Assembly (NCBI GenBank): GCA_022566735.1
Contig: JADFIG010000004.1
Coordinates: forward strand, 1 to 64,000
Direction of reading: 5' to 3'
DNA from: Pseudomonadota bacterium
GTDB lineage: Bacteria > Pseudomonadota > Gammaproteobacteria > Burkholderiales > Burkholderiaceae_C
DNA: 64,000 nucleotides
Shown here: positions 2,405-63,740 of the stretch, piece after piece
Numbering within the stretch: position 1 is the stretch's first letter
Layout of the letters: each line of letters opens with the position of its first letter
Notes under the pieces: model-generated
Database searches by the model: none
The model's input: only the letters and a program-made list of their open reading frames with translations
What the model was told of the DNA's origin: nothing
Position numbers and translations under genes: made by a program

Positions 2405-5400
2405 GCAGGCGGCCTCTCGCCACCGCCACGGCTGTGGCACTTGGCATCTTCGTGGCGTTGAGTTTGGCGCCGACGGTCAGGGCCCACTGGTTTGGGTATG
2501 ACACGGCTGATGCCACCCACGAAGTGATCGCCGACAACGCTCGAACGGTGATTGCTGAATCGGGCGAGCCTGCCACCGACCTGGTTGCCTTCCTGGCTGA
2601 TTATCGCGCTGATTTCACGGCCGGCCTCCGGGGCGCCGATCTGTTCTTGAACGGCGTCGACTCCATCGACGGACACTGTCTCCAGCCCGCAGTCCGCGAT
2701 TGGGAGGCTGAGAGTTGCCCGGCTGCAACATGGAACGATTTTCCCGAATGGTCCGGAATGGTCTTCGGAGACCACGGATACGATCCCGACCCGGGTTCCG
2801 GCTTGGTGACGAGTGCAGAGCGACTGGGTCCTTTGATTCGCGATGACCTTGTCCGTCAGTTCACCGACTACGAGAGAGCCGGCGACGCGGTCTGCGAGCC
2901 CAAAGATCCTGTCGAGGCTGCGCGGGTTCGGAGAGATCCGGCCGGTTGGTGGCCGACGTACGAGGCGCTCCTCGCCGGTTCTGATCTTCCCTCCTTTTGT
3001 CGTATCGGCAGCCTCTATGAGAGGCTCGGAGGGTCTTCTCCCGAGGACAAGGTTGACGCACTAGCAGCAGCAATCGACGAGGCAGACGCCGCTCAGATGG
3101 CCGCCGCGTTCTACAACCGGTCTGTCTCCGACTATCTCGATGGTGATCTCCGCAGCGCGGCGCGGAACCTCGGTGTGGCGGTCCATCTCGTGCAGGATGT
3201 CTCCAACCCAGAGCACACCTGGGCTGTAGACGACGCAGTGACGTTCTTGTCGCTTCAGGATCATGCAAACGAAGACTGCAGAACTTTCGAAGGGTTCTTC
3301 TGGTCCTGCTACCTCTCATTGAATCCGAGCGAGCTGGATGACATCGATGGCGACTATTCGTCCTTCGGCCCCGAGATCTGGGTTCAGCTGACTGCTCGCG
3401 CCGCTCGCCGGTCGGGCGATCTTGCCCCCGACTCGGTTGCACCACTCGTGGCGAGAATCGCGGTTCGTTCGACGACTGGAATGCTCATGTCGTTCGGAAG
3501 GGACGTCGGGCTTGTTGCCGGTGGGCCCAGTCAGTGGTACTTCGACACACCGGGCCATCGGGAAGGGTGGGTCCCCAACGCCGATATCGCGTTTTCGTCG
3601 GTGGAGGACGACGGCAAACTGAGGCTTGACCCATCGGGTCCGGACCCGTGGATCGAGATCAGCGGCCTCCGACTCGACGCCGACGCCTTCGGCTCGTTGT
3701 CCATGTCGATCGCATCAAATGCCACCGACAAATCCGGCACCTTGTTCTGGAGGCGAGCAGGAGACGCGTCGTTCGACCCGGCCCGCTCCATCCTCTTTGC
3801 CGTGCCGAACGTCGTCGGGGCCGACGGTCAGGCATCTTTCGAAGAGGTGGTGATCCCCCTGGTGAAGAAGGAGGAGTGGTCAGGGGAGATAACAGCCCTT
3901 CGTATCGACCCGACAAACCCGCCCACCGGTGCTGCTAGTGCCGGTGCTGCGTCCGATTCGATCGGAATCGACTGGATCAGGTTCACCCGAGGCTCGGGGA
4001 CGGTGCTCGGGAGCATTGTCGGCGGTTCGGGTGATCTAATCGAGCTTCCCAATCTCTACAGCCAGCGGGACTATCCACACATCGCGCTCGCCGGCGACCC
4101 GGCGCTTCCATTCGATGACTGGGGCTGCGTAGTGACCGACGTCGCAATGGTTCTCAACCACTTCGGCTGGTCTGGCGACCCAGTTTCCCTCAACGAGTGG
4201 CTCACCAACAACGGAGGGTTTGACGGCGACGGGAGCATCAAGTGGGACTCTGCTGCTCCTCTCGCGGATCTCGTCGTCGCTGCATTCACCGACCCGACGC
4301 TCGTGGATTCTGAGCTTGCTGTAGGCAACCCGGTGATCGCGAAGGTGCTGACCCAGTCGAGCGGATATCCATACCACTGGGTCGTCATCGTCGGACGAGA
4401 GGGCTCTTCATACCTCGTGGCTGATCCTTGGACAGGGACGATCCACGACATCAGCGAGCCTGTTGCAGGGCTCGGTACCTACACGATGCTGTCGCAGTTC
4501 CGTGTGTACCGGCCGACGGGCAGTGTGGTGCCGCCCCAGTCTCCAGGTGAGGTTGTCGTGTCTGAGTCGCTTGTTGTGAGTCCCGATAGCACAAGTCCCG
4601 GATCGACCGTGATCGCCACCTTCGCGCTTACGAATACAGGAGGGAGTGACATCACGCTGGATCGCGTTGGCACCGCCGGTCGCGGACCACATGGCGCCGA
4701 CGATATCGAAGACTTTCCTTTCGTCCATAGAGTCGCCATCGCGCCGGGTTCAACGTTCCTCTATCAGGCGTCCCGAACCTTCACCGACCCGGGCTCGTAC
4801 ACGTTCAACGTCTGGGTAGAGGAGGCAGGTCATGGCCGTACGCCACTGCCGCAGCCGGACATCTCAGTGACCGCATCGCTCATGATCGACTCCGGATCGA
4901 CTCCACAAACCGGGCAGCCACCAGCAGAGGCCACCGGTCAGATTGCCTTCGCCGCTCGGAACGACTTCACACACAGCTCTGACATCTATGTGGTAGACGC
5001 GAATGACACCACCCTCAGACGGTTGACTGAGACACCGGAGAACCACTTCTCAACCGATCCTTCCTGGTCACCCGACGGAGCACGCATCGCCTTCCATCGA
5101 TCAACCACGGGTGACGTGTCTGACGGGGAGATCTTCTTGATCAAACCCGATGGGTCCGAGCTCACTCCGCTCACGGATCAGCGACTGGCTCGATACCAAC
5201 CTTCCTGGTCGCCGAACGGGGAGCAGATCGCGTTCGTCGCGGGCCCATACACCGACATCATGGACAGGAGTGACGTGTACGTGATGAACGCCGACGGGAC
5301 CGCGGAAAGGAAGCTGACACAAAACCCACAGAATGTCTTCACGTGGGACCCCGCCTGGTCACCGGATGGGAGGACGATCGCCTTCTCAGAGGGCCGAGAG

Positions 5401-49428: not shown

Positions 49429-50406
49429 TCAGTGCGCGCCCGCGGGATCGGTGTGGGGGCCCAGCTGCTGGCGCAGCGTCTGCAAGGCCGCGGCATCGGG
49501 CGCCACGGCGTCCACGCCTTCGGTGAGGGCGGTGACTTGCGTGGGCATGCCGAACATGGCCGAGATGTTGCGGGCCTGGGCGGTGGTGAGGATCAGCAAC
49601 TCGATGCGGCGGTTGACGCCGGCCTTGGGGTCTTGCGTGTCCAGCGGTGCGCGGTCGGCCATGCCCACGACTTGCAGGATGCTGGCGGTGGGCATGCCGC
49701 CGGCCAGCAGTTGCGAGCGGGCCGCCATGGCGCGGTGGGTGGACAAGGCCCAGTTGGAGAAAGCGGCGTTGTCCATGCCGGCGTACTGTACGGCGTCGGT
49801 GTGGCCCACGACCAGCATCTGGTTGTCGATGCGGGCGAACAGCGGTCCCATGTCACGCAAGAGCCGGCGGAAACGCTCCGATGGTGTGGCGCTGCCACGC
49901 ACGAACATGCCTTGCTTGTCGGTGTCGTGGACCATCACGCGCAGGCCGTGCGGCGTGATCACGCTTTGCAGGTTGCCACCCAGGCCGGCGTCTTCGCTCA
50001 GGCGCTGCAGCACCTGGGCCAGCTCGGCCAGGTCGGCGGCGCTGTCATAGCGCACCTTGCGCGTGGGGATCTTGTCGGCGCGATCGTCGCTGCGCGGCTG
50101 GGCATCGGGGTCGCGCGGCAGCGGCTCGCGCGAGATCAGGCTGCCGCGCGGCCCGCCCATGGACTCGGGCATCACGCCGCGGCCCTCGTCCATCTGCTGG
50201 CCACCGACGGCGCGCATCACTTCCTCGGCGCGCTCCTGGTTGCGCGCGGCCAGCACCCACATCACCAGGAACAGGCACATCAGCGCCAGGCAGAAGTCGG
50301 CGAAGGCCACTTTCCAGGCGCCGCCATGGCCCTCGTCGTCATGCTTGCGCGAGACGCGCTTGATGACGGCTTCGCCGTGGGACTTGTCGGACTTCAGGCT
50401 TTGCAC
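49429..50406 (-). CDS. Flagellar stator protein MotB (LafU type)
   Basis: A 325-residue stator subunit. One N-terminal membrane helix with the proton-carrying Asp in FADFCLALMCLFLVMW is followed by a linker and an OmpA-like peptidoglycan-binding domain (VVGHTDAVQYA, then NRRIELLI). The sequence before the helix (HGGAWKVAFADF) is of the LafU type. The helix signature is that of proton-driven, not sodium-driven, motors. Confidence 0.92.
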   Translation of the reverse strand: MQSLKSDKSHGEAVIKRVSRKHDDEGHGGAWKVAFADFCLALMCLFLVMWVLAARNQERAEEVMRAVGGQQMDEGRGVMPESMGGPRGSLISREPLPRDPDAQPRSDDRADKIPTRKVRYDSAADLAELAQVLQRLSEDAGLGGNLQSVITPHGLRVMVHDTDKQGMFVRGSATPSERFRRLLRDMGPLFARIDNQMLVVGHTDAVQYAGMDNAAFSNWALSTHRAMAARSQLLAGGMPTASILQVVGMADRAPLDTQDPKAGVNRRIELLILTTAQARNISAMFGMPTQVTALTEGVDAVAPDAAALQTLRQQLGPHTDPAGAH

Positions 50407-53904: not shown

Positions 53905-54258
53905 TCATTCGCTGTGTTGTGCGTAGGCCATCCAGCCATCGCGGCAGCGCTGCATCTCGCTCAGGCGCTGGGACAGGCGCTCGGCGGCATCGGCGCAACG
54001 GGTGAAGGCGTCGTGGTGGACGCGCTGCAGCAGGCCCATGGCCTGGCGCATCTCTTCGCTCCAGCCGTCGGCGCGCTCCAGGTGCGGCAGCAGGTTGGAG
54101 AGCTCGCGGTCGATGTGACGCAGGGCCTCCCAGTGCCCGGCGCGGGCGGCGGAGGACAGGCGCCGCGCGATGTCACGCAACTGCGTGGCGCGGTCGATGG
54201 GCCGGTCGGCGGAGCGGGGCAGGGCGCTGGGCATGGGCATGGGCATGGGCTCATCCAT
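53905..54258 (-). CDS. FliT-like flagellar chaperone (LafD position)
   Basis: A 117-residue helical protein. It starts inside the end of fliS (8-base overlap; ATG 54258). Its helical pattern with Arg/Glu/Leu and its place between fliS and fliK match FliT, or LafD in lateral clusters, the export chaperone of FliD. Sequence motifs of FliT are weak, so the assignment rests on size and position. The N-terminus MDEPMPMPMP is unusual. Confidence 0.6.
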   Translation of the reverse strand: MDEPMPMPMPSALPRSADRPIDRATQLRDIARRLSSAARAGHWEALRHIDRELSNLLPHLERADGWSEEMRQAMGLLQRVHHDAFTRCADAAERLSQRLSEMQRCRDGWMAYAQHSE

Positions 54259-54637
54259 GGCGGGCTTGCACGCCCTGCCAGCCACCACGCAGGGTGGTGA
54301 TCAGCTCGGTGACCTCGTCGACCAGGCCCACTTCGAGGCGGATGCCGGCCTGGGTCAGGCGGTCGGCGCAGTGTTCGTAGAGGCGGCCCAGGTTCTGGAC
54401 GACCTCGCTGTCGCTGTCGGTGTCCAGGGCGCTGGACAGGCCCCAGAGGATCTGCACGCATTTGTCCAGGCTGCGCGCCTTGAGTTCGTGGCGCTTGCCG
54501 TCGATGTGGGCGCGGGCCCGGGCCAGCTCCTCCAGGAGGCCGTCCATCAGCACGATGACGAGCTGGACCGGCGACGCCTGGACGGTCTGGGCGCTCAGGT
54601 TGACGGCTTGGTAGCTGCGGTAGGCGTCGTGATCCAA
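54251..54637 (-). CDS. Flagellin export chaperone FliS (LafC)
   Basis: A 128-residue chaperone with the FliS signature (YRSYQAVNLSAQTVQASPVQ, then LVIVLMDGLLEELARAR). It caps flagellin before export, which implies that a flagellin gene exists elsewhere. It lies 39 bases after fliD. Confidence 0.92.
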   Translation of the reverse strand: MDHDAYRSYQAVNLSAQTVQASPVQLVIVLMDGLLEELARARAHIDGKRHELKARSLDKCVQILWGLSSALDTDSDSEVVQNLGRLYEHCADRLTQAGIRLEVGLVDEVTELITTLRGGWQGVQARHG

Positions 54638-56143: not shown

Positions 56144-56578
56144 TCATGCCTGCCCCCTGCGCCAGACCTGTGCGGCCAGGTCGTCCTGGCGTTTCTGGTC
56201 GCGGCTGGCCTCGGCGCGCTGCAAGGCGCTGTGCTGGCGCTGCAGCACCTGGCTGAGCACTTCGTGGCGGCGTGCGGCGTCGTGCAGGGCCTGGCGCGAG
56301 GCGGCCATGTCGGCGTCGTGCACGGCGAGCTGCTGGCGGTGCTGGTCGGCCACCGCCAGCAGGCTCAGGCGGTAGGCGCCGTTGTTCATGGCCTGCAGCG
56401 GCGACAGCACGGGCAGGGCGGCGGTGCTGGCGCACAGCTGGTCCATGCGCTCCAGGTTGCGCTGGTAACGCTCGCGCAGGGCCTGCTGGCTGGCCACGTC
56501 GGCGCTGAGGCGGTCGACCTCGCGCTCGCGCAGGTCGACCAGGGTGCTCAGCTGCTGGACCTTGGCGGCGGGGCTCAT
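56144..56578 (-). CDS. Flagellar export protein FliJ
   Basis: A 144-residue, all-helical coiled-coil protein, rich in Gln, Arg, Leu and Ala, that links the export ATPase to the gate. Start ATG 56578 overlaps the fliI stop (ATGA). Motif conservation in FliJ is always low; the assignment is supported by its place after fliI. Confidence 0.8.
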   Translation of the reverse strand: MSPAAKVQQLSTLVDLREREVDRLSADVASQQALRERYQRNLERMDQLCASTAALPVLSPLQAMNNGAYRLSLLAVADQHRQQLAVHDADMAASRQALHDAARRHEVLSQVLQRQHSALQRAEASRDQKRQDDLAAQVWRRGQA

Positions 56579-57885
56579 GCGCACAGCTCCTCAAGGCGGG
56601 TGACGGCGTCGCCCAGCGGGGCGGCTTCCTGCGTGCCCTGGTGCAGGAAGGCTTCGATGCGCGGGTAGGCCGCCACGGCGCGGTCGGTCTGCGGGTCGGC
56701 GCCGGGCACGTAGGCGCCCAGCGGGATCAGGTCGCGCACCTGGGCGTGGCGGGCCATCAGCTGCTTGACCTCGCGGGCGGCGCGCTGGTGCGCGGGGCTG
56801 GCGATCAGCGCCATGCAGCGGCTGATGGAGGCATTGACGTCGATGGCCGGGTAATGGCCGCGCTCGGCCAGCTCGCGCGTGAGCACGATGTGGCCGTCGA
56901 GGATGGCGCGGGCGGTGTCCACCACCGGATCCTGCTGGTCGTCGCCTTCGGCCAGCACGGTGTAGATGGCGCTCATGCTGCCCTGGGGGTTCTCGCCATT
57001 GCCGGCGCTTTCGACCAACTGGGGCAGCACGCTGAAGACCGAGGGCGGGTAGCCCTTGGTGGCGGGCGGCTCGCCCAGGGCCAGCGCCACTTCGCGCTTG
57101 GCCATGGCGTAGCGGGTCAGCGAATCGACCAGCAGCAGCACGTCCTGGCCCTGGTCGCGGAAATGCGCGGCGATGGCGTGGCACAGCTCGGTGGCCATCA
57201 TGCGCATCAGCGGCGATTCGTCGGCCGGGGCCACCACCACGATGGCGCGGCGCAGGCCGGCCTCGCCCAGAGAGAGGTCGATGAACTCGCGCACCTCGCG
57301 GCTGCGTTCGCCGATCAGCCCGACCACCACGACATCGGCCACGGTCTGGCGGGTGATCAGGCCCAGCAGCACGCTCTTGCCCACGCCGCTGCCGGCCATC
57401 AGACCGACGCGCTGGCCCTTGCCCAGTGTCAGCATGCCGTTGATGGCGCGCACGCCCACGTCCAGGGCTTCGCGCACGGGGGTCTTTTTCAGCGGGTTCA
57501 CGCGCGGCGGGTGCGGGTCCAGCGGGTGCTCGCCGCCCAGGCGGCCCAGGCCGTCCAGCGGCTCGCCCAGGCCATTGACGATGCGGCCCAGCCACGACGG
57601 CCCGATGTGCAGCTGGCCCTTGTCGGGCGCGGGCAGCACGCGGGCGCCGGTGCTCAGGCCCAGCGGCTGCTTGAAGGGCATCAGGTAAGAGACTTTGTCG
57701 CGGAAACCCACGGCCTGCGCTTCCAGCCACTCGCCCTGGGCCGTCTCGATGTGGCAGCGCTGGCCGGTGCGCAGCGCGCAGCCGGTGCTCTCCAGCAGCA
57801 AGCCGGTGGCCCCGACCAGGCGGCCGGTGGGCGTGGCGATGGGCACCTCGCCCAACTCCAGGGTGCGCAGGGCGTGGGCGATCAT
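56575..57885 (-). CDS. Flagellar export ATPase FliI
   Basis: A 436-residue ATPase of the F1-beta/T3SS type. Walker A (GLMAGSGVGKSVLLG, near residue 165), Walker B (DVLLLVDSLTRYAM) and the segment GYPPSVFSVLPQL are present. It powers unfolding of export substrates together with FliH and FliJ. Start ATG 57885 overlaps the fliH stop (ATGA). Confidence 0.95.
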   Translation of the reverse strand: MIAHALRTLELGEVPIATPTGRLVGATGLLLESTGCALRTGQRCHIETAQGEWLEAQAVGFRDKVSYLMPFKQPLGLSTGARVLPAPDKGQLHIGPSWLGRIVNGLGEPLDGLGRLGGEHPLDPHPPRVNPLKKTPVREALDVGVRAINGMLTLGKGQRVGLMAGSGVGKSVLLGLITRQTVADVVVVGLIGERSREVREFIDLSLGEAGLRRAIVVVAPADESPLMRMMATELCHAIAAHFRDQGQDVLLLVDSLTRYAMAKREVALALGEPPATKGYPPSVFSVLPQLVESAGNGENPQGSMSAIYTVLAEGDDQQDPVVDTARAILDGHIVLTRELAERGHYPAIDVNASISRCMALIASPAHQRAAREVKQLMARHAQVRDLIPLGAYVPGADPQTDRAVAAYPRIEAFLHQGTQEAAPLGDAVTRLEELCA

Positions 57886-58625
57886 GGCGTGAGCGCCTCC
57901 GCTTGCGCCGTGTCCATGTCCATGTCAGGCTGCTCCAGCAGCTGGTGGTGCACCTGCTCCATCACGGCGTGCAGGCGCTGCTGGCAGCCGGCGTCGGCCT
58001 CGCGGTCGCCGACCTTGACGCGGCATTCGCCCAGCTGCAGGCCCGGGTCGGCCAGCAGGGTCCAGCCGGCGGTGCGCTCGGGCGCCAGCTCCAGGATGCG
58101 CTGGCGCTCCTCGGGGTGCATGAAGATCTCGATGCCATCGGCCGAGGGCGGCATGACCGACAAGGCCTCGTCGACCAGGGCCAGCAGCTGGGTGGGCTGC
58201 AAGGTCAGCTCGCAGCGCACCACCTGGCGGGCCACCTTGGCCACCAGGTCCACCACCTCCTTGCGCAGCGCGGCCTGGTAGTCGGCCTGCAGGCGCTGCA
58301 GGTCGGCCAGGGCGGCTTCCAGCGGGCGCGCCAGGCCCTCGAACTTTGCCAGGGCTTCCTGGTGGCCGGCGCTGCGGCCTTGCTGCTGGCCTTCCTGGTA
58401 GCCGGCGCTCAGGCCGTCGCGGTGGCCGCGTTCGCGTCCGGCGTCCCAGCCTTCCTCGTAGCCCTTGTCCAGGCCTTGCTGGAAGCCTTCGGCCATGGAG
58501 GACTGCAGCTGCGCGTGCTCGCTGGGCATGCGGCCGCCCGCGGGCACCAGGGCCTGCCCATGCCCGGACAGCTGCGTGAACTGGCTCAGCGGCGGGAAGC
58601 GGTGCGGGCGCAGCGGCTTGCTCAT
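57882..58625 (-). CDS. Flagellar export regulator FliH
   Basis: A 247-residue stator-like partner of FliI. A run of glycine-spaced helical repeats of the GxxxG type (about residues 47-90: GFQQG, GYEEG, GRERG, GYQEG, GRSAG) is the hallmark of FliH. The C-terminal part binds FliI. Start ATG at 58625 overlaps the fliG stop (ATGA). The longer frame upstream is a fliG shadow. Confidence 0.9.
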   Translation of the reverse strand: MSKPLRPHRFPPLSQFTQLSGHGQALVPAGGRMPSEHAQLQSSMAEGFQQGLDKGYEEGWDAGRERGHRDGLSAGYQEGQQQGRSAGHQEALAKFEGLARPLEAALADLQRLQADYQAALRKEVVDLVAKVARQVVRCELTLQPTQLLALVDEALSVMPPSADGIEIFMHPEERQRILELAPERTAGWTLLADPGLQLGECRVKVGDREADAGCQQRLHAVMEQVHHQLLEQPDMDMDTAQAEALTP

Positions 58626-59674
58626 TCCAGCACCTCTTCGGCAAACAGCTGGACGTCGATCTCGCCGGCGGCATGCAGGGCGCGCACCTGGGCCATGATC
58701 TCCTGGCGCACCTGCTCGACGCGGCTCGTGGGCACGGGGCCGGTGCGGCGCATCATGTCCTCGAAGCTCTGGGCCTGGCGGCGCGGCATCGACTGCAGGA
58801 TGGCGTCGCGGATGAGGGGCTCGGCGCCCTTGAGCGCGATGGCCCACTGCTCCGGCGCGATGGCCTCGATGATGCGCACCAGCGTGTCCTCGGTCTGGCG
58901 CGAGAGGATGAAGAAGTCGTACATGCTGACTTCCAGCTCCGAGACCACGGCCGGGTCGTGCGCGCGCAGCAACTCGACCATCTGCTGCTTGTTGCCAGGC
59001 AGGCGGTTGAGGATCTCGGCGGCCTGCTTGAGGCCCTCGACGCTGGCGCTCTGCATGGACAGCGAATCCAGGCAGCGGGTCACGACCTCGTCGAGCTCGG
59101 CCAGCAGGTCCTGGTCGATTTCCTTGAGGCGGGCCACGTTGAGCAGCAGCAGGTCGCGGCCCGCGGGCGGCAGCGCATCGATCACCTGGCTGGCCATGGC
59201 CGGTGGCAGGAAGGCGATGAAGACGGCCTGCATGCGCACGTGCTCGTGGGCGATGCGCTCGGCCAGCCACTTGGGCGAGGCCCACTGCAGGCGGGCCATC
59301 TTGGGGCGGATGGCGTCGCCGTAGATGCTGTTGAGCACGCTGTTGGCGATCTCCGAGCCCAGCGCCAGGTCCAGCGAGCGCTTGAGGAAGGAGCGCGAGG
59401 CGCCGTGCACGCCGCTTTGCTCGCGGTAGTCGTCGAAGAAGTGCTGCAGCGCGTGCTTGACGGCCTCGACCTTGATGCCGCTGAGGCGCGACATCACCTG
59501 CGTGATCTCCAGCAGCTCTTCGCGCGACAGGCAGCGCAGCACCGCGGCGGCGGGCTCCTCGCCCATGCTCAGCAGCACGATGGCGGCCTGCTCGATCGGG
59601 GTCGGGGCGGTCGCGGGCGTCAGGGTGTCCATGCCCAGGACGCCCACTTCAGCCAGGTTATTGCGGTCGGCCAT
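58622..59674 (-). CDS. Flagellar motor switch protein FliG
   Basis: A 350-residue rotor protein. The N-terminal part binds FliF (IEQAAIVLLSMGEEPAAAVL), the middle contacts FliM, and the C-terminal domain carries the charged torque helix (EPLIRDAILQSMPRRQAQSF). Start ATG 59674 (MADRNN) lies inside the end of fliF (17-base overlap); the frame opens further at 59707 without support. Confidence 0.93.
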   Translation of the reverse strand: MADRNNLAEVGVLGMDTLTPATAPTPIEQAAIVLLSMGEEPAAAVLRCLSREELLEITQVMSRLSGIKVEAVKHALQHFFDDYREQSGVHGASRSFLKRSLDLALGSEIANSVLNSIYGDAIRPKMARLQWASPKWLAERIAHEHVRMQAVFIAFLPPAMASQVIDALPPAGRDLLLLNVARLKEIDQDLLAELDEVVTRCLDSLSMQSASVEGLKQAAEILNRLPGNKQQMVELLRAHDPAVVSELEVSMYDFFILSRQTEDTLVRIIEAIAPEQWAIALKGAEPLIRDAILQSMPRRQAQSFEDMMRRTGPVPTSRVEQVRQEIMAQVRALHAAGEIDVQLFAEEVLE

Positions 59675-61418
59675 GCTTTTGCACCCACTGTTTGACGACT
59701 TCGGCAACGCGCTCCGGCTCCTTGCCGGCCAGCACCTTGAGGTGGTCGACCATCACGTCCACGGGCGAGCCCGGCGGCGGCAGGTCGTAGTTCTCCATCA
59801 GCGGCACCACGGCGGTGTCGGCGGCGGTGCCCACGGGCTGCGGCAGGGCAGGGCGGCCGCCGTCGGCGTGGCCCAGGGCCTGCGCGGCCTCGGTGGCCGG
59901 CTCGCTGCGTTCGTGGGCCGCGTTCGGCACCGGGGTCAGCTCGCTCAGGCCGGGCCCCTTGCCTGCCAGCGCCACGGCGCCTTCGTTGCGGGCACCGCGA
60001 CCCAGGCCGGCTTGCACGGCGGTGCGCAGCAGCTGCAGCAGCGGCCGCACGATGAACAGGAAGCCCAGCAGCGCGCCCAGGCCCCACACGCCGCGGGTGC
60101 CCAGGTCGATGACGGTGTCGCGCTCCTGCCACCAGGGCTGCACGGGTGGGCGCACCGGGAAGGCCAAGGCCGAGACCACCAGCTTGTCGCCGCGCTGCTC
60201 GTCGATGCCCAGGCCGTTGCGCAGGATCTGGTCGATCTGCGCGATCTCCGCCTTGCTCCAGGCCGCAGCACGGCCGGTGTTGTTGAGCACCACGGCCACG
60301 TTGCGCTTGCTGAGGCGGCCGCGGCTGCGCTTGATCTGGGTGATGTGGCGGTCGTAGGCGTACTGGCGGGTGGTGGCGTTCTTGTGGGCGCTGTTGGCCG
60401 GGCCGTTGGCACCGGCCACCGCGGACGCAGCGGCCACGGCCACCGGGCGGTTGCTCAGCGAACCCGGCACGCCCAGGGCCACGGCATCGCCGCGGTCCTG
60501 CTCTTCGCGCGTGGCCTCGGTGGTGACCTTGGGCGTTTCGCCGTACTGCTCGCGCGTTTCTTCGACGCGGTCGTTGTCGACTTCGGCCGTCACCGTGGCC
60601 TTGAAGTTGTCGGCCCCCAGCACCGGCGCCAGCAACTCGCTCACATTGCGCAGCGTGTCGTCCTGGTAGCGCCGCGCGGCCTCGTTGCCCTGGCCGCCGG
60701 CGGCATCGAAGCCTTCGCTCAGGTCCACGCGGGCCGACAGCAGGTTGCCGGCCTGGTCGACCAGCGACACGCGCTTGGGGTCGAGGCTGGCGACGCTGCC
60801 GGCCACCAGGTTGACGATGGCGGCGATCTGCTCGTTGCTCAGGTGGCGGCCCGGCTTGAGCGCCAGCACCACCGAGGCCGAGCTCTTCTCGCCATCGCTG
60901 ACGACGAAGGACGAGGACTTGGCGATGGACAGGTGCACGCGGGCCGTGTCCACGGAGTCGACCGTCTGGATGCTCTGCGACAGCTCGCCTTCCAGGCCGC
61001 GGCGGAAGCGCACGTCCTGCACGAACTGGCTCACGCCCAGCGGGTCGTTGCGGTCCATCAGCTCCAGGCCGGCGGGCAGCTTGGCGGTCACGCCCTTGGC
61101 GGCCAGCAGCATGCGCACCTTGCCCAGCTCGGCGTCGGGCACCAGCACCTGGCCGCTGTCGGGGTGCACGCGGTAGGGCACCTTCTCGGCGTCCAGCACG
61201 GCCATCATGTCGGCGGCGGCGACCTTCTCCCGCGCGCCGAAGACGGGCTTGTACTCGGCCTGGTCGCGCCAGACCACCATCATCACGGCGGCGCTGATGC
61301 CCAGGGCGACCAGCCCCAGCGGAACAAGGCTGCGCAGGAAGGCCGGGGGCAGGCCGGGCATGCCGCCCGCTTCCCCTCGCCAGCGCTGCAGCCCGGACTT
61401 GATGACGGATGTGACCAC
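59658..61418 (-). CDS. Flagellar MS-ring protein FliF
   Basis: A 586-residue membrane protein that forms the MS ring. The first membrane helix is at about 25-50 (LVPLGLVALGISAAVMMVVW), followed by YscJ-like domains (ADMMAVLDAEKVPYRV; VARVHLSIAKSS region), and the second helix at about 440-465 (GLGALLGFLFIVRPLLQLL). The C-terminus that binds FliG is present. It lies 23 bases after fliE. Confidence 0.94.
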   Translation of the reverse strand: MVTSVIKSGLQRWRGEAGGMPGLPPAFLRSLVPLGLVALGISAAVMMVVWRDQAEYKPVFGAREKVAAADMMAVLDAEKVPYRVHPDSGQVLVPDAELGKVRMLLAAKGVTAKLPAGLELMDRNDPLGVSQFVQDVRFRRGLEGELSQSIQTVDSVDTARVHLSIAKSSSFVVSDGEKSSASVVLALKPGRHLSNEQIAAIVNLVAGSVASLDPKRVSLVDQAGNLLSARVDLSEGFDAAGGQGNEAARRYQDDTLRNVSELLAPVLGADNFKATVTAEVDNDRVEETREQYGETPKVTTEATREEQDRGDAVALGVPGSLSNRPVAVAAASAVAGANGPANSAHKNATTRQYAYDRHITQIKRSRGRLSKRNVAVVLNNTGRAAAWSKAEIAQIDQILRNGLGIDEQRGDKLVVSALAFPVRPPVQPWWQERDTVIDLGTRGVWGLGALLGFLFIVRPLLQLLRTAVQAGLGRGARNEGAVALAGKGPGLSELTPVPNAAHERSEPATEAAQALGHADGGRPALPQPVGTAADTAVVPLMENYDLPPPGSPVDVMVDHLKVLAGKEPERVAEVVKQWVQKHGRPQ

Positions 61419-61441: not shown

Positions 61442-61801
61442 TCAGACGGGCAGCTTCATGAGCTCATCGACGGCGCCCATGACCTTGTTGCGCACCTGCA
61501 TGAGCATGGAGAAGGACAGGCTGGCTTCCTGGCTGGACAGCATCGCGCCGACCAGGTCGTCGCTGCGGCCGCTGTCCACATCGGCCATCTTGCCGGCGGC
61601 GATCTGCTCCTTCTCGTCCACGCTCTGCACGGCGGCGCGCAGGCTGTCGGCGAAGCCGCCGGCACCGCCCTGGCCGCCATGGAGCGCAGCCGCGTCGGCC
61701 ACCGGCGCCCCCATCGGGGACAAGGGTGCGGACAAACCGGCGGGCGCGCTGCCGCGAATTTCCTGCAGGTCGCTCTGAATCTGATGGCGCATGTCGAGCA
61801 T
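61442..61801 (-). CDS. Flagellar hook-basal body protein FliE
   Basis: A 119-residue MS ring-rod junction protein; the C-terminal part (SSQEASLSFSMLMQVRNKVM) is the FliE signature. ATG 61801 with GAGGA six bases upstream is the start; a TTG at 61804 also stays in frame. It is the first gene of the long minus-strand flagellar run, and its leader reaches back to the riboswitch about 530 bases upstream. Confidence 0.9.
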   Translation of the reverse strand: MLDMRHQIQSDLQEIRGSAPAGLSAPLSPMGAPVADAAALHGGQGGAGGFADSLRAAVQSVDEKEQIAAGKMADVDSGRSDDLVGAMLSSQEASLSFSMLMQVRNKVMGAVDELMKLPV

Positions 61802-61973
61802 CAAGGTCCTCGCTGAGCTTCGTTGAGTGTGAAAACTGAAAATCTTGCAATCGATGCGAGTTTCCGCGTGCGCGCCACGGGTATCTGGCGCGCCTTGTTC
61901 ATTTCCTGGTGACCTGATTCATTTGAATTTCATGGCGCGTTTTTCTTGAAATTGAATGGCGCAGCTTTTCCTG

Positions 61974-61992
61974 TCCGGAATTCATTTCCGGA
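61974..61992. promoter_or_regulatory. Perfect inverted repeat upstream of fliE
   Basis: TCCGGAA (61974-61980), spacer TTCAT, TTCCGGA (61986-61992). It lies about 175 bases upstream of the fliE start. Two copies of ATGGCGC (61932 and 61956) precede it. It may be the operator of a regulator of the fliE operon or an RNA hairpin in the leader; the binding protein is unknown. Confidence 0.45.
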
Positions 61993-62247
61993 TGTGCTTT
62001 GAATCAGGTTTTCCAGCGGGCGCCTTGGGTTTTTGTTGCGCGCGCTCAGGGCCGGGTCAAGGGCAGTTTCACGAGGGTGTCATTCAGGGGGCAATACCGG
62101 GCCATGCCGGCGACGTCCGGGCACGCCGCGGGCGACTGGGGCGCGGGGCGTGGCGGTCGAGGGCGCGGTGGATGTCATGGCAGGGCCTTCCAGTTCAGTC
62201 GGATCGAACGCCCCGGACGGGCGCACTGAAAGGCGGGCCGCTCGCGC

Positions 62248-62265
62248 CGTTTCCCTGGGGAAACG
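62248..62265 (-). promoter_or_regulatory. Strong hairpin in the riboswitch leader
   Basis: On the minus strand CGTTTCCC and GGGAAACG pair perfectly over 8 bp with a 2-base loop. No U-run follows, so it is not an intrinsic terminator by itself. It lies downstream of the aptamer and may belong to the leader RNA structure. Confidence 0.4.
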
Positions 62266-62273
62266 TGCGATGA

Positions 62274-62335
62274 CAGACAGGCAGCCCCATGGCCGTGAGG
62301 CCACGAAGGGCAAGGTCAGGCAGTGACCCTGTCTG
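62274..62335 (-). promoter_or_regulatory. Possible expression platform of the riboswitch (alternative stem)
   Basis: On the minus strand CAGACAGG (plus coordinates 62335-62328) can pair over 8 bp with CCTGTCTG (62281-62274), enclosing a second hairpin TGGCC-TCAC-GGCCA (62290-62303). The upstream arm overlaps the 3' edge of the aptamer, so this stem and the aptamer's closing helix may exclude each other. No U-run follows, which argues against a simple terminator. Confidence 0.45.
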
Positions 62336-62441
62336 GCAACCCCGCTATCGTGATCTGCCTGGGAGATGGGCCAGGACAGACGTTAGACCGGAGGCTTTGC
62401 GACCCCGCCTTTCGTGCGGGTGTGCCGGGATGTGAAGCCAT
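62333..62441 (-). ncRNA. Cyclic di-GMP-I (GEMM-I) riboswitch aptamer
   Basis: Read on the minus strand, the segment has the order of conserved blocks of the Vibrio Vc2 aptamer. These are CGGCACACC (Vc2 GGGCAAACC), then a stem capped by ACGAAAGG, then CGCAAAGCCTCCGGTCTAA (Vc2 CGCAAAGCCUCCGGCCUAA), a second hairpin (CCTGGCCCATCTCCCAGG) and the closing GATAGCGGGGTTGCC (Vc2 GGUAGCGGGGUUACC). One deviation is visible: the base before CGCAAAGCC is U, where Vc2 has an A that stacks on the ligand. The aptamer lies behind a promoter at 62440-62468 and about 530 bases before fliE, so the fliE operon is the apparent target. Ends are given to within a few bases. Confidence 0.88.
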
Positions 62442-62468
62442 GCTAAGTTTTGTTGCGATTTGCCGCAA
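62440..62468 (-). promoter_or_regulatory. Sigma-70-type promoter of the riboswitch/fliE transcript
   Basis: On the minus strand, -35 TTGCGG (62468-62463) and -10 TAGCAT (62445-62440) are separated by exactly 17 bases. Transcription would begin near 62433, at the edge of the aptamer. The exact fit of promoter and aptamer edge supports both calls. Confidence 0.6.
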
Positions 62469-62470
62469 CA
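62451..62470. promoter_or_regulatory. Inverted repeat overlapping the -35 region
   Basis: TGTTGCG (62451-62457), 6-base spacer, CGCAACA (62464-62470): a perfect 7-bp inverted repeat lying over the -35 element and spacer of the minus-strand promoter. This is the geometry of a repressor operator. A second inverted repeat GTGCAT-CA-ATGCAC follows at 62498-62511. Confidence 0.5.
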
Positions 62471-62602
62471 CCCTGCGTTCAGCATCCGGGGGCTGATGTG
62501 CATCAATGCACGGCTTTTCCCAAAACCTCATCCCGCGCCGACCTGAAAATGAAAAAAGTGAGCGCTGTGGTGGCTGATTTTGAAACACATTGTGTCTGTG
62601 CG

Positions 62603-62819: not shown

Positions 62820-63740
62820 ATGAGCCTCTCACCCACCCCTTCCCTGCGGACTGCCTTGGCGTCGGCGCGGCCACACCCGGTGCTGGATCCCCGCAGCCTG
62901 GGGCGCCCGGTGCACCGCCTGGACACCTTCACACGCCGCCTCCAGGCCGACCTCGACGAGGTCTTCATCCTGGGCCTCAACCGGCGCTACCGAGCCGGCT
63001 TCGTGCTGCGGGACGTGCGCATCGACCGCACGGCCGCCGTGGAGGCCGTGGGCGTTGCACCTGTGCCGGCGACGCCGCAGCCGCGCTGGCAGTCCCTGGT
63101 CAGCGAGGTGGGCCGCATCGGCTTCAGCATCGACCGCCCCTTGCTGATGACGGTGCTGAACTACCGCTATGGCCTGCATGAGGGCTCCAACGATGGCCGG
63201 TCCGCCGACGAGCCGCTGGCCCCCGAGACCACCACCGAGGCCCGTCTGAGCACCATGCTGGCCCTGCAGTGGGCCAACACCCTGGCGCTGTGCATCGACA
63301 CCCTCCAAGGCACGCTGGACGGCCAGGCCGTGCACGAGTTCACCCCGGTGGCGGGTGCACCCGCGCTGGGCGAGGGCAGCTGGACGGTCACGGCCACCGT
63401 CAGCGAGACGGTGCTGGGTGTCAGCGGCCAGGTGCGCTTCCGCCTGGACGAGGCCTGGATGGCCCGCCTGCTGCGCCAGCTGGCGCCGGCCCGTGAACGC
63501 GCCACGCCCACCGCAGCGCCGCAGGCCCCGCTGCCTGGCCGCCTGTCGCTGACCCTGCAGGCCCGCCTGCTGGAGCAGGAGCTGCCCCTGGGCACCTTGC
63601 TGGACCTGCACGTCGGCGATGTGCTGCCGGTGCGCCTGGGCCTGGCCGATGTGCTGGTCGACGACGCCCGCCTCTTCAAGGCCGCGGTGGCCGAGCACCA
63701 GGGCAAGTTGTGCCTGACCTCTTTCCAAGACGCTGAATGA
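62820..63740 (+). CDS. Divergent flagellar motor switch protein FliM (Flag-2/SctQ-like)
   Basis: A 306-residue C-ring protein. The C-terminal SpoA (FliMN_C) domain is clear (LSLTLQARLLEQELPLGTLL, then DLHVGDVLPV and ending LTSFQDAE); the middle resembles the FliM/SctQ core only loosely. The N-terminal CheY-binding segment of ordinary FliM (ILSQ-EIDALL type) is absent. This fits the FliM of lateral/Flag-2 systems. ATG 62820 is chosen with GGAA upstream; the frame is open from 62706 (ATG also at 62781). It is the first gene of a plus-strand run that continues out of the window. Confidence 0.8.
   Translation: MSLSPTPSLRTALASARPHPVLDPRSLGRPVHRLDTFTRRLQADLDEVFILGLNRRYRAGFVLRDVRIDRTAAVEAVGVAPVPATPQPRWQSLVSEVGRIGFSIDRPLLMTVLNYRYGLHEGSNDGRSADEPLAPETTTEARLSTMLALQWANTLALCIDTLQGTLDGQAVHEFTPVAGAPALGEGSWTVTATVSETVLGVSGQVRFRLDEAWMARLLRQLAPARERATPTAAPQAPLPGRLSLTLQARLLEQELPLGTLLDLHVGDVLPVRLGLADVLVDDARLFKAAVAEHQGKLCLTSFQDAE

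Follow-up and report, generated by a model that had tools for sequence, protein, structure and literature searches.

How does cyclic di-GMP (c-di-GMP) steer bacteria with two flagellar sets towards swimming, surface movement or attachment? This question is raised by a locus in a 64-kb stretch of Pseudomonadota DNA (64,000 nucleotides, the window hereafter), in which a c-di-GMP-I (GEMM-I) riboswitch lies ahead of a lateral-type fliE operon. The reading that we put forward, with a probability of roughly 0.6, is that the riboswitch has its own promoter, starts a leader of about 0.6 kb of the lateral fliE operon, and acts as an OFF switch via leader translation and Rho. If this is true, c-di-GMP would act on flagellum assembly in many Betaproteobacteria by a direct and protein-free route, for one flagellar set only, and the messenger RNA itself may sense c-di-GMP when cells decide whether to build lateral flagella.

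We take the cluster in the window to be a lateral-type secondary flagellar set. Relatives of the lateral-type FliI, LafU and LafS lie together in one cluster, FliI above the cut-off of its model and the LafU and FliA models below theirs; the best match of the sigma gene is the FliA model NF009091, and both NF005535 and NF009091 represent the lateral forms. The earlier note had named fliE as the first gene downstream, at the head of a flagellar run, and this agrees with the TIGR00205 match (67.4 bits) and with the minus-strand order after fliE, namely fliF, fliG, fliH, fliI, fliJ, fliD, fliS, fliK, fliL, a fliA-type sigma gene, motA and a lafU/motB-type gene, followed by flg genes to about 38 kb. 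The fliD model match is below cut-off and that of fliK is weak, and fliG, fliD and fliK are named partly by place. A small frame between fliS and fliK (53905-54288, minus strand) has no Pfam match. On the plus strand, fliM, fliN, fliP, fliR, flhB and flhA run divergently, mostly beyond the window end, with flagellin further on. A search with FliF alone found a second FliF in the genome (G000:C30:255345-256706, 38% identity), and the nearest named relative by FliF, among the best 80 of 230 loci, is an Aquabacterium MAG (73% identity over the best segment, 77% on the tree alignment). By eye, the fliM-fliE gap of the window holds no frame longer than 105 aa on either strand except those overlapping fliM.

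Table 1 Features of the fliM-fliE region and of the lateral flagellar cluster in the window.
Feature	Position	Strand	Basis or remark
Divergent fliM	62820..63740	+	PF01052 over cut-off for the containing frame; without an aptamer of its own in the window
CRP-like palindrome TGTGC-ATCAAT-GCACG	62497..62512	.	upstream of promoter
Inverted repeat GTTGCG-N6-CGCAAC	62452..62469	.	overlaps the -35 box
Promoter	62440..62468	-	TTGCGG (62468-62463), 17-nt spacer, TAGCAT (62445-62440)
c-di-GMP-I (GEMM-I) riboswitch aptamer	62332..62436	-	RF01051; same-place copies in 19/23 other lateral-type family genomes
Leader RNA, aptamer to fliE	61805..62331	-	527 nt to TTG, 530 to ATG
Anti-core element GCGGCCC	62235..62241	-	7 bp complementary to aptamer core GGGUCGC; shuffle P 0.21 alone, not significant
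Shine-Dalgarno-like GGAAGG of leader frame	62186..62191	-	sequence
Short leader reading frame, 32 codons	62080..62178	-	ATG at 62178 (+153 from aptamer end)
C-rich, G-poor tract just after leader start codon	62136..62175	-	base composition
fliE, first operon gene	61442..61801	-	TIGR00205 67.4 bits, cut-off 30; ATG at 61801, 530 nt past aptamer
fliF (lateral type)	59658..61418	-	TIGR00206 219 bits, cut-off 129.75
fliG	58622..59707	-	TIGR00207 165.6 bits, below cut-off 226.7; upstream part of frame overlaps fliF
fliI, lateral type	56575..57885	-	NF005535 756.5 bits, cut-off 715
lafU/motB-type stator gene	49429..50406	-	best model NF005273 (LafU) 206 bits, below cut-off 383

A cmscan search with 4227 Rfam families matched positions 62436..62332 of the minus strand to RF01051 at 58.8 bits (cut-off 35, E 6.3e-9) over the complete model (1-87), and this is the sole match above cut-off on either strand of the 64-kb window. 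The c-di-GMP-I aptamer that the earlier note had recognised on this strand is thus established over its full length, and the features by which it was recognised (GAAA loop, core CGCAAAG, strand GATAGCGGGG) are all present as described. The aptamer itself spans 62332-62436, and the extent then given, 62333-62470, includes the promoter as well. The alignment contains the segments GGCACACC, a CGAAAG loop with the GAAA tetraloop in P2, GUCGCAAAGCC and GAUAGCGGGGUUGCC, with GGCA, CGCAAAG and UUGCC all there, and the modelled stems are intact in the window copy. Three bases of Vc2, G20, A47 and C92, presumably contact the ligand; with our own placing of them on the alignment, the window and each of the 19 further family copies introduced below have kept them. 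The 3',3'-cGAMP variant of GEMM-I carries A at the G20 position, and none of the 20 family copies has this A, the window and the other 19 all having G. The G20 equivalent is described as a selectivity factor among cyclic dinucleotides (PMC9262584). Since the contact bases are kept and the G20 equivalent has this role, c-di-GMP rather than cGAMP is the predicted ligand, and we expect the window aptamer to bind accordingly. The genome has one other c-di-GMP-I aptamer (L004, G000:C20:78336-78421, minus strand, 54.1 bits), which precedes frames for PF03029 (a small ATP/GTP-binding protein) and PF03259 (Roadblock/LC7 domain), possibly a polarity module.

For a comparison of the placement before fliE among relatives, the window FliF served as query against 399 genomes of the family, one of them the genome of the window. 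Twenty-four lateral-type matches were obtained, 23 of them besides the window's at 63-70% identity with E < 1e-180, and the next match stood at 1e-64. When these 23 were searched with RF01051, 19 had an aptamer on the strand of the fliF match and 0.77-1.11 kb ahead of it, hence before fliE, with scores of 51.1-70.3 bits; with the window counted, the arrangement is found in 20/24 lateral-type genomes and 15/16 genera. The four lateral-type genomes without an aptamer at fliE (G564, G763, G465, G705) belong to one genus, and G763 has one elsewhere. In the aptamer-less genus g225 (L099), and also in L139, L159, L162 and L172, the fliM-fliE gap measures about 2.4 kb or more, whereas carriers, L110 for example, have about 1 kb. 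Outside the family, among 299 other genomes of the order, four have a close lateral FliI, and in none of the four is there an aptamer around fliE. The best aptamers in the order reach 88 bits, well above the window copy, as might be expected of a decayed and functionless aptamer kept by chance in this genome; the intact stems and contact positions, together with the 19 same-place copies and their scores, make such an origin highly improbable.

A wider view was gained from a collection of named relatives, from which the best 80 of 230 loci were kept. With a covariance model built from 26 aptamers, 20 aptamers were found in 19/80 named loci, one of the 80 (L187) having only 45 bases upstream, too short to judge. 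A cross-check of 13 loci with Rfam agreed throughout, the three model-positive loci being positive (4 aptamers) and the 10 negatives negative. Carriers are Aquabacterium, Roseateles, Pelomonas, Mitsuaria, Paucibacter, Methylibium, Rubrivivax and Ideonella, and further Ramlibacter, Azoarcus, Zoogloea, a Rhodocyclaceae MAG and three unplaced MAGs. Among these best 80 of 230, no match was seen in the loci of Janthinobacterium, Massilia, Duganella and kin, Undibacterium, Acidovorax and Curvibacter, nor in those of Pseudorhodoferax, Variovorax, Rhodoferax, Methyloversatilis, Jeongeupia and Steroidobacter. As 8 of the 19 named carriers were already in the family set, the two sets together comprise 31 loci and 32 aptamers. 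Placed on a quick 51-row FliF tree, aptamer presence required 3 changes, against about 16 in shuffles, and all carriers fell on one side of the midpoint root, together with 12 non-carriers; the rows were 50 loci chosen from the 80 plus the window, and the 30 left out were all aptamer-less and nearly all Janthinobacterium, Massilia, Duganella and kin. The link between aptamer and fliE, which the earlier note had inferred, is therefore supported by comparison (20/24 clusters, 19/80 loci, clustering on the tree), and we infer from this constancy of place that the riboswitch would control fliE.

Transcription is expected to start near 62433, just behind the promoter in Table 1. A promoter with a 17-base spacer had been claimed here before; it is present, and its layout is shared by relatives, but it is weak, with 7/12 consensus bases, and was not picked up by a consensus promoter scan of the window. 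The layout TTG-N3-N17/18-TA-N3-T lies 41-44 nt before GGCACACC in 16/20 family copies, with 0.11 expected from shuffles, the copies being related and so not independent. It is absent at this place in L039, L040, L041 and L055, and is found at the same place in L110; the plain sigma-70 score at the promoter place is barely higher than in shuffles (7.35 vs 6.74). Over the promoter, the inverted repeat at 62452..62469 is a possible operator, and L110 has GTTGC-N8-GCAAC where the window has this repeat. Further upstream stands the CRP-like palindrome. Sites with at least 7/10 matches to TGTGA-N6-TCACA occur 95-96 nt before GGCACACC in 13/20 copies, and with at least 8 in 7/20, where the shuffle control, which allows the motif anywhere in 130 nt, reaches 7 in 28% and 8 in 3.5%; the window scores 6 at the 95-96 nt place, its own palindrome being about 9 nt closer to the aptamer. 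L054 and L056, both without a CRP-like site, have a GATACAC-GTGTATC-like palindrome over the -10 box just before the aptamer.

The leader between aptamer and fliE is 370 to 659 nt long in the 20 family copies, and A+T rises to about half in its fliE-proximal part. Such long leaders could accommodate a second start, the riboswitch governing no more than the short leader frame, or a small RNA that ends within the leader, while fliE is read from a promoter of its own in the A+T-richer part. In this part a sigma-28-like site with at least 12/16 bases is found in 4/20 leaders, compared with 1 on the reverse strand and 0 in fliF, a slight excess (mean z 1.68; 10.65 vs 9.81); some operons may therefore have a second promoter, the best site of the window scoring 10 with P 0.53. 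Sigma-54-like and sigma-70-like scores in the same part match those of shuffles, and we rejected both as promoters there. Against a purely local role also stand the leader peptide, which is not conserved, and the aptamer, which stays with fliE across genera and is repeated before fliM in one locus (L125). We consider this separation of riboswitch and fliE quite unlikely.

A module within the leader, which the earlier note on the aptamer, promoter and fliE had missed, came into view when the relatives were aligned. Its first part is a hairpin linker. In 16 aligned leaders (A4), 33 named pairs show standard pairing in 95.6% of cells and 9 pairs are changed on both sides; none of 500 shuffles reaches the observed values, and slid structures give 35-44%. 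The both-side changes fall in the fourth helix (5/9), the third (2) and the fifth (2). These 16 rows, out of 32 leaders, are the 14 RNAalifold rows plus L185 and L186 and were picked for GUUGUG(A/G)CC, and the linker fold obtained by RNAalifold is poor with all 20 leaders (-10.8) and reaches -38.7 with the 14. The window (L035), L038, L040, L041, L054, L056 and 10 of the 12 later leaders lie outside the pair count. Just before fliE, RNAalifold found no conserved fold over the 20 leaders.

The second part is a segment 62-98 nt past the aptamer, which in relatives is complementary to the ligand-binding core GGGGUCGCAA. This element reads UUGUGACC in most relatives, copies that are related by descent, and GCGGCCC in the window. 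A contiguous helix of at least 9 bp between core and element is present in 14/20 leaders (0.8 expected from shuffles) and one of at least 7 bp in 19/20 (7.3 expected), whereas a far control window gives 0 leaders at 9 bp or more and 3 at 7 bp or more. Of 12 further leaders, 8 have a core helix of at least 7 bp, counted over a wider stretch and as raw numbers free of a shuffle control, and fewer than 7 contiguous bp are found in L041, L171, L174, L169 and L189. In the 16 aligned rows the helix is paired partly by construction, since the rows were picked for GUUGUG(A/G)CC; it has no both-side change, and the few changes in the element keep pairing save at the outermost pair, which is unpaired in 8/16. 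The core is likely held constant by ligand binding. The energy of the core-to-tail duplex was set aside as support, its mean z of -0.70 being only mildly below shuffles, and the contiguous-helix count was preferred. U precedes CGCAAAG in 20/20 lateral copies and in only 1/45 others (33 have A, 5 are without the motif). The one non-lateral copy with this U, L074 (1501-1592), is a c-di-GMP-I aptamer with the core letters of the lateral copies ahead of a PAS-GGDEF-type frame (named by eye), so this U is no proof that the core pairs with the element.

Behind the linker comes a start codon. A Shine-Dalgarno core with an ATG at +125 to +170 is found in 24/32 leaders, compared with 9/44 other GEMM-I leaders, in which the ATG and Shine-Dalgarno site lie mostly at 60-140 nt, presumably as the start of the gene itself. 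Any ATG at +128 to +169 occurs in 31/32 leaders and also in 21/44 others, the remaining leader having GTG. With one start codon chosen per leader, the strict Shine-Dalgarno core is missing at the chosen start in 7/20 family leaders. The frames range from 4 to 103 codons, and there is no conservation of the peptides. Seven codons is the length of five frames, which have good Shine-Dalgarno sites: MNHHILV in L174, MNRYLLV in L169, MNCHILV in L158 and L164, and MKPPGYT in L189. Frames of 4-8 codons would shield little RNA, which counts against a role of leader translation. In composition the first 40 nt from the start are C-rich, with mean C of 0.40 and G of 0.20, and C exceeds G in 19/20 leaders; over +3 to +43 the same holds in 11/12 further leaders. 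The tract looks like a rut-like, Rho-loading site, C-richness by itself being no proof of Rho.

From these parts we would assemble the following course of events. At low c-di-GMP, the downstream element would pair with GGGGUCGCAA and undo the aptamer, the leader frame would be translated, and polymerase would continue into fliE. At high c-di-GMP, the aptamer would keep its core, leaving the element and the C-rich tract open; with less leader translation Rho could load, and transcription would end before fliE. The OFF direction we consider probable, and the output through leader frame and Rho is the more tentative part, a little short of even.

Folding predictions over the 32 leaders bear on both parts. 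With the aptamer locked, the two element windows are predicted to be more open in 17 and 18 of 32 leaders and less open in 0 and 2, and the Shine-Dalgarno window is less open in 12/32 and more in 2. The first 20 nt of the frame become less open in 11 and more in 6, against a simple opening of the whole tract, and the stretch at +20 to +40 becomes more open in 15 and less in 4. On balance the predictions favour Rho loading with c-di-GMP bound, that is, an OFF switch. Sequestration of the Shine-Dalgarno site by ligand state, taken alone, was rejected, predicted access hardly differing between states (0.44 vs 0.40 over 20).

The same predictions weigh on two other outputs. Ligand might instead free the leader and let transcription proceed, c-di-GMP then raising lateral flagella, for example on first surface contact. 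Both ON and OFF types of c-di-GMP-I switch are known, the pair in Vibrio cholerae being an example (PMC6366702), which leaves the argument for OFF weak, and gammaproteobacterial lateral flagella serve surface movement (PMC8042155). The element is nevertheless predicted to be more open with the aptamer locked, and the one flagellar precedent found, Cd1, is an OFF switch; we judge an ON switch rather unlikely. A second possibility is a translational switch followed by mRNA decay, in which c-di-GMP alters ribosome access at the leader start, the untranslated leader is cut and degraded, and fliE falls without Rho. The leader start lies near the place where other GEMM-I aptamers have their ATG and Shine-Dalgarno site, and a consensus scan of the window found no terminator-like site (a G+C-rich hairpin with a U run) between aptamer and fliE on the minus strand, as decay would allow. 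Rho accounts better for the C-rich, G-poor tract that follows the start codon directly, and the predicted change in accessibility at the Shine-Dalgarno site is small, which makes decay an unlikely route compared with the OFF switch through leader translation and Rho.

The extent of the module can be read from the Rhodocyclaceae MAG locus L125, where two similar aptamers stand back to back, one at 3720-3807 on the plus strand facing fliE and the other at 3280-3367 on the minus strand facing fliM (2101-2958, minus); Pfam confirms both fliM and fliE. Minor differences and a single stretch of about 30 nt aside, the two leaders are alike to 27 nt past the leader ATG and then diverge, which we read as the natural extent of the functional unit. 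More speculatively, and short of even odds, a portable module made of aptamer, hairpin linker with anti-core element, and leader start codon with Rho-loading tract may have been cut, along with the first codons, from another c-di-GMP-controlled gene and set before lateral operons. In at least one lineage it would have been copied to both divergent halves, and RNA-level gating by c-di-GMP would there take over, for the entire secondary flagellum, the part of an activator like LafK. The L074 aptamer is possibly kin of the source of this module.

The window riboswitch belongs to RF01051, but neither its setting nor its leader module is one that we have seen described. In the open-licence literature, judged by title or the start of the abstract, we found no report of a riboswitch before a lateral or a betaproteobacterial flagellar operon. 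The locus may offer a case of c-di-GMP acting via leader-frame translation and Rho, and the question is open to reporter tests in the cultured relatives Roseateles, Ideonella and Zoogloea.

Several known systems share parts of this arrangement. Rho termination is controlled by riboswitches or leader frames at mgtA, ribB and tna, and the logic proposed here is alike, RNA state and leader translation deciding on Rho loading, though here it is read from sequence alone. Gammaproteobacterial lateral (Flag-2) clusters have lafK between fliM and fliE; the gene set and the divergent fliM and fliE halves are alike, whereas a motif search for the sigma-54 activator, LafK being sought near fliE, found it in no frame of the 80 loci, and the gap holds a riboswitch in 19. 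The window copy presumably has its aptamer fold and contact bases in common with Vc1 and Vc2 of Vibrio cholerae, and to our knowledge the genes controlled by these two are not flagellar operons. Neither of them works by transcription termination (PMC6366702); in the window, too, the consensus scan found no terminator-like site between aptamer and fliE.

The closest counterpart is Cd1 of C. difficile, which heads the early flgB operon in a leader some 498 nt long and stops transcription on ligand binding (PMC5386303), so direct RNA sensing ahead of early flagellar genes is already known. The two systems share the aptamer class, the position before an early flagellar operon, and a leader of roughly 500 nt that has the riboswitch in its opening part (PMC5386303, PMC6366702, PMC9262584). 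In Cd1 an antiterminator fold undoes the aptamer, as we propose for the core-complementary element; the ligand-bound stop lies about 160 nt in and is followed by an invertible DNA switch, whereas no terminator-like site was found in the window leader. Unlike Cd1, the present riboswitch is followed by a linker of hairpins, the element complementary to its core, a leader frame and a C-rich tract, and it belongs to a different phylum and to a lateral, secondary flagellum.
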